From NCBI RefSeq assembly GCF_000512895.1, contig NZ_CP007033.1, positions 960,001 through 1,024,000 of the forward strand: a stretch of 64,000 bases of DNA, read 5' to 3'. Origin of the DNA: Dehalobacter restrictus DSM 9455. Its GTDB lineage: Bacteria; Bacillota; Desulfitobacteriia; Desulfitobacteriales; Syntrophobotulaceae. The notes beneath the pieces are model-generated. The model was not told where the DNA came from. It saw only the letters and a list, made by a program, of their open reading frames with translations, and did not search any database. This document shows positions 2,679 through 61,384 of the stretch, piece after piece (positions within the stretch are counted from its first letter, which is position 1; each line of letters opens with the position of its first letter). The position numbers and the translations under genes are program-made.

Positions 2679-2740
2679 TGCCTAAAAAATTTATACCCTA
2701 ACTAAAGGTGTCATCAAGCATATTAATCACCTTCTCTTCC

Positions 2741-2858
2741 AACGCTTACGAGATTAGCTGACGGATTCGGGTCGAAAGAGCCTAACCCTACCAAAGCACC
2801 TGCTATGGATTCACCCCTATTTGTTTGGGTCTCCCGTTCCATACGGATTCAGCGTTTA
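2741..2858 (-). ncRNA. cyclic-di-AMP riboswitch (ydaO/yuaA class)
   Basis: The minus strand carries the characteristic conserved blocks of the ydaO/yuaA motif in the right order: CGCTGAATCC at the 5' side, then GGAACGGGAGACCCA, GGGGTGAATCC, CTCTTTCGACCCGAATCCG, and CAGCTAATCTCGTAAGCG closing the outer stem. The class binds c-di-AMP and usually switches expression off when the ligand is high. It is followed by an intrinsic terminator and then ablA-ablB, so high c-di-AMP should reduce synthesis of N-acetyl-beta-lysine. This fits the known link between c-di-AMP and osmotic balance. Assigned by eye from conserved blocks, not by a covariance search. Confidence 0.9.
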
Positions 2859-2950
2859 AAATAAATTCAGTTTTGTTCTTTGATAAAAACATAAGGTGAA
2901 AAGCTAACACATTAAGTAGCCTCCCACCCCAGAGCCTTGTTTCTCTTGAA

Positions 2951-2966
2951 AATGGCAAGTGCCATT
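2951..2966. repeat. perfect inverted repeat upstream of the riboswitch
   Basis: AATGGCA and TGCCATT are separated by two bases. The palindrome lies about 95 bases upstream of the riboswitch on the minus strand, where a promoter or operator for the abl operon would be expected. No protein can be assigned. Confidence 0.35.
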
Positions 2967-3251
2967 CCAACCGAAAGCAAACGTATTATGTTTTGCATAT
3001 CCTATTTACTGAATCCAGCCAAAATATTAGCTGATAAATATAGAATAACAAAAGATTAATTTAATGTCAATTTAAAATGTATTTTTTTGGCAATGTTTCC
3101 TAACCATGTGAACTACAGTTTCTTGTTCACAGAAACACCTCCTGAAAATAATTGCTGCAACGATATCAACGATATGAAGAATTGTAACAAAAATCCTGAG
3201 ATTAATAAAGGAAATGACTTTTTTTCGGCGAACTTTAATACATAAAATCGG

Positions 3252-5103: not shown

Positions 5104-5539
5104 CGCGGATGCCTGTCCGGTGAAGGAGCTCATTGTGAGCTGCGCGAAACAATTTGAACTTCCGGTCATCATGATCGTCGATACTTCCCATGAACTGAAG
5201 GACGACTACAGTATGGTGATCACCGTGGACCAGGATCGGGACAGTGTAGATTTCGCGCTGATGAAGCGGTTGGACAGGGAAGATATTGTTGTCACGCAGG
5301 ATCATGGACTGGCGGCGCTTGTTCTGGGGAAAGGCGCCAGGGCAATCAATCAAAATGGACTTGTTTATACGGACAGCAATATTGAACGGCTCCTTTTTGA
5401 ACGTCACGTCGGACAAAAGGTACGGCGTGGGGGAGGAAGAACCACCAATGTTAAGAAAAGAACCAAAGAAAACAATGAATGGTTCAGGACGGCCTTTATT
5501 AGGCTGATTGAAGAAACCAAAGACCGTACGTTTGAATAA
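5087..5539 (+). CDS. YaiI/YqxD family protein (DUF188, UPF0178)
   Basis: A 150-residue member of the DUF188/UPF0178 family. It begins with the conserved MKILVDADACPVK, has a central DFALMKRLDREDIVVTQDHGLA block, and ends with the RRGGGRTTNVKKRT basic segment typical of the group. The aspartates in DADACP and TQDHGLA suggest a metal-binding PIN-like nuclease fold, but no activity is established for the family. The ATG overlaps the recQ end, so the pair is probably co-translated. A ribosome binding site (AAGGAGG) lies inside recQ. Confidence 0.88.
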   Translation: MKILVDADACPVKELIVSCAKQFELPVIMIVDTSHELKDDYSMVITVDQDRDSVDFALMKRLDREDIVVTQDHGLAALVLGKGARAINQNGLVYTDSNIERLLFERHVGQKVRRGGGRTTNVKKRTKENNEWFRTAFIRLIEETKDRTFE

Positions 5540-13611: not shown

Positions 13612-13660
13612 TTTTTACGTACAACGGAACAGTGCCCCCCAAATTGATCATGAGGTTGTT
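13612..13660 (-). repeat. partial copy (left half) of a dispersed structured repeat
   Basis: Read on the minus strand, this segment matches the first 41 bases of the element at 16601 at 32 of 41 positions, with mostly transition differences (shared core TGATCA, GGGGG, CAC, GTT). It lies just upstream of the Fur-family gene. Only the left half is present. Confidence 0.6.
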
Positions 13661-16512: not shown

Positions 16513-16600
16513 GATCTACGATGACCATTCTAGCAAAAAAGTTCTTAAAGTAACCACATAGATAATGAGCTAACTATGGCATGCAGACTTGCAGACTTAC

Positions 16601-16735
16601 AGAAGTAACCTTATGATCAGTCTGGGGGACACAGTTCTGCTGTAAGCGGAGCATGGAGTGCGCAGCGCGGCCTTTTGTACCATGGATGGCACAATGGCCG
16701 GGAAGCAGTATTGTGGCCCACAGACTATCCCCAAA
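16601..16735 (+). repeat. structured intergenic repeat, longest copy
   Basis: The 307-base gap after znuB (16513-16819) holds no gene. It contains a GC-rich element bounded by TCTGGGGGA and TATCCCCA, which are nearly complementary. Inside are several hairpins: ACAG/CTGT, GCGC/GCGC, TTGTACCAT/ATGGCACAA and GGCC/GGCC. Its left half recurs at 13612-13660 and its right half at 57243-57300, both in reverse orientation. A structured RNA, a miniature mobile element or a terminator-like repeat are all possible. Confidence 0.6.
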
Positions 16736-16819
16736 AATAGATTATTATCTCAATTTGCGCTGCCTCAATAAGAAGTTAAAATGAGCTTACCGCGTTATTT
16801 AAGAAAGGACTGACCAATC

Positions 16820-57225: not shown

Positions 57226-57242
57226 ATACAACATATTTGAGG

Positions 57243-57300
57243 TAGGTCAGCGTGCCACAGTAGCGCTTTCGGCCATTGTGTCATCCCTGACACGTGCTCT
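57243..57300 (-). repeat. partial copy (right half) of a dispersed structured repeat
   Basis: On the minus strand GGATGACACAATGGCCG matches GGATGGCACAATGGCCG of the element at 16601 at 16 of 17 positions, and the match continues more loosely for about 29 bases. The adjacent hairpin (GTGTCA/TGACAC) replaces TTGTACCAT/ATGGCACAA in the other copy, so the pairing is kept although bases differ. Confidence 0.55.
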
Positions 57301-57859: not shown

Positions 57860-58002
57860 TACCTTAGTCCGCTTGACGCTGAAATTGTAGCACGCAGACA
57901 AAATATGGGGTATAAGATATAAGATTTATGGCTAAGATTTGCTAAAGGCGCGAAGAGAAAGTCTTTGCATTTAGAATACGGAACGGGAAGTGACAGTGTC
58001 AG

Positions 58003-59836: not shown

Positions 59837-61252
59837 ATGACGGAGAAGAATAACCCTATTACTGAAGAAAAAACCAAACGTACGCGGAAACGCATAAACG
59901 ATCAAAACGCACGGCTGATAGCCGTGCGTATTCTTACGCGGGTCGAAAAAGAAGGGGCCTATGCCAATCTTCTTTTACGTTCCCAGCTTTCAGGACTGAC
60001 CCAGAGCCGGGACAGGAATCTGGCTACTGCTTTGGTCAACGGGGTATTAAAAAACAAATTGACGCTGGATTATGCGTTGAGAAAACATCTGAATAAGCCG
60101 ATGTCCGCATTGCCGCAGGAAGTCAGGGCGGTTTTAAGGACCGGTGTTTTTCAGATACTACTCATGGACAGAGTGCCGGTGCCCGCCGCGGTCAATGAGA
60201 GTGTTGACCTGATGAACCAACTGAACCGAACCTATTCCCCCCTTGTCAACAGTGTCCTGCGCAAGGCGGCTGAAACAGGCTGGAATTTTGAATGGCCAGA
60301 CCAAAAGAAGGAAACGGTCCGCTATCTTTCGGTCAGATATTCCCATCCTGAATGGATGATCAAGCGCTGGCTGGCAAGGTGGGGGCAGGAAGAAACAGAA
60401 GCTTTGCTCAAAGCCAACAACGAACCTTCCCTTACTTCTATCCGTGTAAACACCCTAAAGACAACAAGGCAGGAACTAAAAACCTTATTGGAAAGTCAGG
60501 AAATTGAGGTCGTGGACGGAGAATACACACCGGAAAGTTTAATTCTGAAAGATTTTGGCGGATTGGACCAACTTTGGGAATTCCAAAACGGATATTTCAC
60601 GGTTCAGGATCAGAGTTCTCAGTTGGCTGCTCATCTATTGGGAGCGCGGGAAGGGGACAGCGTATTGGATGTCTGCAGTGCCCCGGGAGGGAAGACAACC
60701 CATCTGGCGCAATTGATGAAAAACAAGGGAACCATTGTTGCTGTAGATATGTATCCCCAAAAGCTTGATTTGATCAAGGAATCAGCCGAGCGGCTCGGAA
60801 TTACAATGATAAAAACTGTTGAGAGCGACGCCCGGATTTTGGAAGGAATCGGAGAGAAGTTTGACCGGGTCCTGGTTGATGCGCCCTGTTCGGGCTTGGG
60901 TGTGCTTAGAAAAAGAGCTGATCTGCGCTGGCAGAAGAGAGAAGACGAGATCAGCAAACTGCCAGAACTCCAGCTGGCAATCCTGCTGAAAGCTGCCGAT
61001 CATGTGCGGGAAGGCGGAGAGCTTGTTTATTCGACCTGTACCACGGAGCCGGAAGAAAACTTTGAAGTGATTAAAGCTTTCCGGCAGCTTAAGCCCGAGT
61101 TTGTTTCCGTCGACTTGTCGGGAAGTTTGCCTTTTGCAGCAGAGGAGAGAGATCTGAAACAACTCCGGAAAGGGGTATGGCAGATCCTGCCTCATCATCA
61201 CAATATGGATGGATTCTTTATCGCTAAGTTTCGAAGGCCATGGATGGCCTAG
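59837..61252 (+). CDS. rsmB: 16S rRNA (cytosine967-C5)-methyltransferase
   Basis: Methylates C967 of 16S rRNA. The 471 residues have an N-terminal NusB-like RNA-binding domain (LIAVRILTRVEKEGAYANLL) and a C-terminal methylase with SVLDVCSAPGGKTTHLA, the catalytic VDAPCSGLGVL and the second cysteine in VYSTCTTEPEENFEVI. A charged N-terminal tail of about 20 residues precedes the domain. In the 132-base gap to rlmN a short open frame is present, but it has no start codon. Confidence 0.95.
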   Translation: MTEKNNPITEEKTKRTRKRINDQNARLIAVRILTRVEKEGAYANLLLRSQLSGLTQSRDRNLATALVNGVLKNKLTLDYALRKHLNKPMSALPQEVRAVLRTGVFQILLMDRVPVPAAVNESVDLMNQLNRTYSPLVNSVLRKAAETGWNFEWPDQKKETVRYLSVRYSHPEWMIKRWLARWGQEETEALLKANNEPSLTSIRVNTLKTTRQELKTLLESQEIEVVDGEYTPESLILKDFGGLDQLWEFQNGYFTVQDQSSQLAAHLLGAREGDSVLDVCSAPGGKTTHLAQLMKNKGTIVAVDMYPQKLDLIKESAERLGITMIKTVESDARILEGIGEKFDRVLVDAPCSGLGVLRKRADLRWQKREDEISKLPELQLAILLKAADHVREGGELVYSTCTTEPEENFEVIKAFRQLKPEFVSVDLSGSLPFAAEERDLKQLRKGVWQILPHHHNMDGFFIAKFRRPWMA

Positions 61253-61384
61253 TGACGCGATGCTACGGATAGCAAGGAGCGGCAAGAAGATTTTATAGCA
61301 AGTCTATGTGCTTTAATTGACAAAGCTTTACGTCTGGCGGAAAAACATGTTTAAGATCATGAAATTGGGAGAATAATACTAATT

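Follow-up and report, generated by a model that had tools for sequence, protein, structure and literature searches.

A mobile structured repeat with two conserved GGA loops in Dehalobacter restrictus and its relatives, and CsrA as a tentative reader of the loops

Background

Does the hairpin-rich intergenic element that follows znuB in Dehalobacter restrictus owe its paired base changes to selection on a fold, to its life as a palindromic mobile unit, or to both, and what would recognise it? Where selection on palindromic repeats of bacteria is assumed at all, it is usually taken to act on them as DNA or as generic stable hairpins. Sections of PMC3733652 describe the REP/BIME/REPIN repeats as dispersed intergenic palindromes, often in inverted pairs with spacers and sometimes inside longer palindromes, while the Correia, ERIC, BOX and RUP MITEs are presented in part of PMC10969869 as short, transposase-less, intergenic and mutually nested. 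The element studied here lies in the window, i.e. the whole 64,000-nucleotide stretch analysed, which covers positions 960001-1024000 of the single 2,943,336-bp contig of the genome (G000 hereafter).

Results

The element after znuB and its fragments in the window

A sequence-only reading had proposed a structured element after znuB, and this was borne out: the only match of covariance model R1 in the window is at 16620-16725 on the plus strand (101.9 bits, E 7.3e-21), and the fold of this copy beats 199 of 200 dinucleotide shuffles (z -2.55). Its resemblance to other copies spans 16553-16740 by BLAST, and it is composed of the following parts, with columns referring to alignment A1:

16553..16619, plus strand: 5' flank common to other G000 copies of the same subfamily (BLAST, flank listing)
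16620..16725, plus strand: structured core, a three-way-junction element of P1, P2 and P3 (covariance model R1)
16620..16639, plus strand: outer stem P1, 5' arm (columns 1-22)
16646..16666, plus strand: P2 arm GC-GGA-GCA-TGGAG-TGC-GCA-GC, loop GGA at 16655-16657 (columns 29-49)
16668..16700, plus strand: P3 hairpin, hexaloop ATGGAT at 16682-16687 (columns 51-84)
16706..16725, plus strand: outer stem P1, 3' arm (columns 90-109)
16726..16740, plus strand: 3' tail of the TATCCCCA type (BLAST, flank listing)

Neither a plus-strand sigma-70-like promoter nor a terminator-like site was found at this copy by a simple consensus scan. Rfam gave nothing above gathering score at the element, the best hit in permissive E-value mode reaching 11.2 bits against a cut-off of 40, and the plasmid collection searched with the repeat yielded no match.

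Four fragments of the repeat occur elsewhere in the window:

57231..57299, minus strand: 3'-half fragment upstream of def (BLAST best E 3.4e-10)
57862..57912, minus strand: 5'-half fragment just downstream of def (BLAST best E 5.1e-8)
61227..61286, plus strand: stand-alone extra-hairpin module, as inside P3 of larger copies (BLAST best E 3.4e-10, sequence)
13621..13651, minus strand: weak 5'-half fragment upstream of the Fur-family gene (34.6 bits)

The right half of the element had been said to recur upstream of def, which is real, and the left half upstream of the Fur-family gene, where the match is weak (31 nt, 84 percent) but above background, the maximum among 282 random window pieces being 27.4 bits. 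The second and third fragments listed were absent from that reading, and a reversed-window control gave no match at E<=1e-3. The gene def lies between a 3'-half and a 5'-half fragment, both on the minus strand, a pairing that is either chance or an old split copy. The module at 61227-61286 overlaps an rsmB/sun-like ORF in its last codons and, since it stands alone, may be able to move on its own.

Copy number and distribution

A BLAST search of the genome with the window element returned 53 matches at E<=10. A covariance model was built from an alignment of 33 copies, outside of which stood eight extra-hairpin or odd-structure copies, one duplicate, the divergent copy at 740359 and two copies missed in parsing. 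The genome-wide search that had been suggested as a check, run with this model, revealed further copies: 76 matches at E<=1 in G000, corresponding to 66 distinct places after the removal of ten, of which seven were antisense hits to places counted before and three were weak (E 0.15-0.37).

The repeat was found in 12 of the 61 genomes searched, namely all five members of the genus, G000 included, six others of the family and one of another family, with 48-64 matches per genome across the genus (64 being the number scored). Among named genomes, a pattern scan picked out 22 stretches, in Peptococcaceae MAGs, Candidatus Dichloromethanomonas and a Gracilibacter MAG, with one probable chance match, the hit in a Proteobacteria MAG (L112), which had no model match and was treated as chance. 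Nearly all copies are intergenic, many of them between co-directional genes. Ten of the 54 clusters of G000 are divergent pairs 135-327 bp apart, and some divergent pairs have collapsed to simple palindromes. Two copies of a rare P1 subfamily (G000 656008 and 1843292; L033, L032) lie within a nearly identical larger duplicated stretch.

A three-way junction supported by covariation

The consensus fold is a three-way junction formed by the long outer stem P1, the short arm P2 (consensus GC-GGA-GC[A-NGGA-N]GC-GNA-GC) and the hairpin P3, whose consensus loop ANGGAN is usually closed by a C-G pair. Larger copies carry added hairpins within P3, mostly with NGGA loops too; in one of them (G013 L088, 1501-1653) the extra P3 module is inverted relative to the other copies seen.

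Across the 33 sequences, pairing holds in 96.3 percent of cells and two-sided changes affect 23 of the 35 pairs, with a covariation of 0.391 versus 0.132 after shuffling and at most 0.092 in slid controls. An alignment of 41 matches, of which 30 are distinct and most come from other genera, gave 0.644 versus 0.170; this alignment leans towards the model because it was fitted to it. The hairpin originally singled out as compensatory was correctly recognised: at model pairs 61/74 and 63/72 some copies have C-G and others U-A. In the window copy this hairpin contains one A-C mismatch. The P1 subfamilies (GTCTGGGGGCCACAG.., GTCTCCGTAATGG.., AGCTACACCGTAG.., GCGGAGGGCAGGC..) are unrelated in sequence with complementarity kept, so that the letters differ wholly between subfamilies and genera while the pairing is maintained. 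Of the outcomes named beforehand as refuting, neither a lack of further copies nor differences that break the pairing occurred.

Insertion polymorphism and old positions

All 20 loci fetched from G001 fall at G000 sites with a copy or remnant, as do 18 of the 20 fetched from G004; the remaining two G004 loci correspond in G000 to a remnant and to an empty site near window position 5539. In G003, whose flanks mostly show about 70-75 percent DNA identity to G000 at shared sites, 21 loci were compared: four of them, the znuB site among these, hold a copy in the corresponding intergenic region, one more is a doubtful case and the others have no match to the G000 loci examined. At the znuB site of G003 the sequence of P1 is largely different yet paired.

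Two insertion polymorphisms between sister genomes support the proposal of a palindromic mobile unit: a G004 copy is missing from G000 and G002, and a 228-bp unit of G000 (2752782-2753009) is absent from G001 and G002 and collapsed in G004. The latter unit carries terminal inverted repeats, starting with CTAGTACAACGTTCC and ending with GAACCTTGTACTAG. Ends of the CTAGTACAACGTTC type were located at 11 places in G000, against none for the reversed control pattern; such repeats are established for one subfamily, and the window copy is not among the copies showing them. Both CTAG and GTAC fit as target-site duplication candidates at the insertions, the empty sites having diverged.

A pattern search of G000 found no autonomous element with CTAGTACAACGTTC ends, the ORFs being read at two of the 11 end places (L247 and L253), where neither looked transposase-like by eye. 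The two Y1 transposase genes of G000 (PF01797) have no model match within 1.5 kb, and a REP-type Y1 transposase partner was rejected, none being adjacent to copies in this genome. Between the two members of a divergent element pair in G004 (L137, 1370-2170) lie several hundred bp that G000 lacks and that may contain a small ORF; this stretch might conceivably be the cargo of a composite.

GGA loops fixed in place while stems turn over

A positional search of 177 distinct simple copies detected A(N)GGAN in P3 of 171 and GGA in P2 of 176, the two GGA loops being separated by 22-33 nt (median 29). Orthologous sites were compared in 47 pairs at the top-scoring loci of the model list; choosing loci by their similarity to the family favours conserved cores. 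In these pairs the GGA of P3 had 0/138 substitutions and that of P2 3/132, while the same type of count gave 289/4569 in the rest of the element, 606/6165 in the adjacent flank and 1791/27675 in the wider flank. The A and GGA columns of the P3 loop showed 0/160 changes in 40 ortholog pairs. Neighbouring N positions vary (10/36 at column 66, 7/40 at column 70 and 16/40 at column 46). Because the original loci headed the model list, the count was repeated on 20 loci with weaker BLAST scores; the resulting six pairs pointed in the same direction (both loops 0/36 versus 99/803; P3 alone not significant, p 0.15).

The stems, in contrast, have changed in 76 distinct paired-change events at orthologous sites, among which 21 are double changes from one Watson-Crick pair to another and 24 are single changes away from Watson-Crick pairing (nine to G-U, three to A-C, 12 to other mismatches). 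Together with covariation far above the shuffles, these double changes support the selection on structure that had been suspected at the outset. Elements 12, 18, 27 and 28 each have two linked pair changes, and whole P3 hairpins appear swapped between copies; with several double changes linked inside a single hairpin, gene conversion among copies is part of their origin.

Strand asymmetry

With the habitual G-U pair left out, G-U outnumbers A-C by 30:10 in alignment A2, 11:1 in A4 and 79:25 in A5, sets that overlap in ancestry, and shows no significant excess in A1 (18:13, p 0.47). In 172 of the 177 copies the fold of the GGA strand is more stable than that of the complementary strand (mean -58.3 versus -51.7 kcal/mol), a comparison that is descriptive because the copies are related. 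Both asymmetries favour a folded single strand, either RNA or single-stranded DNA, and we lean towards RNA with the GGA sequence, and not DNA, as what selection acts on.

Discussion

Our analyses make it highly probable that the element after znuB belongs to a family of mobile, structured repeats on which selection acts. In each genome some 60 copies hold identical unpaired loop bases at old sites despite the turnover of their stems, which implies a specific reader.

The leading guess for this reader is CsrA. According to part of PMC7652899, a high-affinity CsrA site is an ANGGAN hexaloop on a hairpin, in which the A and the GGA are contacted and N is variable, a rule reported for RsmE; the best loop spacing for one CsrA dimer is given there as >18 nt. 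The fixed and free loop positions of the repeat follow this rule and the spacing of 22-33 nt fits, hence the guess. A csrA gene is present in G000, in ten of the 12 repeat-bearing genomes and in 40 of the 49 others, a co-occurrence that says little given how widespread csrA is in the group (50 of 61); it was undetected in two repeat-bearing genomes, both drafts (G018, 84 percent complete, and G041, 91 percent). Single copies between co-directional genes, the genes being our own ORF picks without annotation, display no orientation bias (12 sense, 14 antisense), which is odd for a cis-acting RNA. The P3 stems are also longer than most CsrA SELEX hairpins described in the same part of PMC7652899, which counts against CsrA. 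Owing to the two repeat-bearing drafts in which csrA is missing, the even orientations, the lack of promoter- and terminator-like sites at the window copy and the stable stems, we name CsrA as the putative reader with more reserve than conviction.

The repeat as a whole is best described, at a confidence somewhat short of even, as a MITE/REP-like mobile palindromic repeat whose branched single-strand core presents two GGA loops for CsrA-type binding. As a single strand, its core would form a branched hairpin exposing both loops at the distance observed. A single dimer of CsrA, or of a protein like it, might then bind the two A(N)GGAN loops, which is the least certain step. Transcribed copies could serve as local CsrA sites or, with about 60 of them taken together, as a dispersed decoy for CsrA, and the transposition of new copies would spread CsrA regulation. 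That the repeat is in this full sense a transposable CsrA-binding RNA module, planting CsrA control or forming a genome-wide decoy of >100 loops, seems to us rather unlikely. We know of no CsrB-type RNA in such bacteria.

The strongest alternative, which is doubtful but deserves serious consideration, is that the repeat is selfish DNA only, its hairpin and GGA loops being recognised as single-stranded DNA by a transposase supplied in trans (HUH-like or other), so that the loops are conserved since only such copies spread. The insertion polymorphisms, the terminal inverted repeats, the absence of orientation bias and the wholesale exchange of P1 between genera all agree with this scenario, and the G-U preference fits single-stranded DNA as well. 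However, the positions are mostly old (20/20 in G001, 18/20 in G004) and the loops are nevertheless fixed in place, whereas selection on transposition alone would make no such demand of a copy once inserted; moreover, the Y1 transposase genes of G000 have no element nearby, and no autonomous partner with the same ends was seen there at the places read.

An mRNA stability or processing element of the ERIC or Correia type, in which the stable hairpin marks where transcripts are processed or protected and loop identity is secondary, is improbable. The intergenic location of the copies, often between co-directional genes, would suit it, and cleavage of MITE-carrying transcripts by RNase III or RNase E is known from part of PMC10969869; it leaves unexplained, however, why constraint is strongest on the unpaired bases of the loops and the stem letters keep changing. 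Least probable of all is a purely mechanical origin of the paired changes by template-switch correction of imperfect palindromes and gene conversion between copies, for although double changes occur almost as often as single changes off Watson-Crick pairing, P3 hairpins look swapped and collapsed palindromes indicate that inverted copies do recombine, such correction cannot hold the unpaired loop bases, which are fixed, and double-stranded correction is not expected to favour G-U over A-C.

Compared with known systems, the repeat works like a MITE/REP-type element with an unusually specific branched core. It shares with the GTAG- or CGTC-tagged REP/BIME/REPIN repeats, as portrayed in sections of PMC3733652, the dispersed intergenic palindromes and the inverted pairs with spacers, but those measure 20-40 bp, whereas its core is about 105 nt and branched, has no REP-associated tyrosine transposase beside its copies and fixes its loops rather than an end tag; it was not classed as REP because of core size and the absence of an adjacent transposase. 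Like the Correia, ERIC, BOX and RUP MITEs it is short, transposase-less, intergenic and nested, with insertion polymorphism and, in one subfamily, terminal inverted repeats; unlike them, its outer stem is replaced wholesale between subfamilies and genera round one conserved core, and no autonomous parent was found. The CsrB/RsmZ-type RNAs offer a parallel for the loops, several ANGGA-loop hairpins being spaced for a CsrA dimer, with larger copies adding two GGA hairpins; they differ in being encoded by one or a few genes rather than by many small dispersed mobile copies, whose CsrA sites are candidates only. Since the window copy lacks promoter-like (plus-strand) and terminator-like sites and CsrA binding is putative, the repeat was not assigned to this class.

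In the open-licence literature we found neither an earlier description of the repeat nor a link between CsrA and such repeats. Were CsrA the reader, transposition would offer a route for global RNA-binding control to spread; were it a transposase, the repeat would be an unusual single-strand substrate.

The window also contains other structured elements identified with Rfam. A Na+ riboswitch (RF03071) adjoins a c-di-AMP riboswitch (RF00379) on the same strand at 2727-2972 (minus), possibly as a two-input leader, and a c-di-GMP-I riboswitch aptamer (RF01051) lies at the start of the window, at 25-116 on the minus strand.
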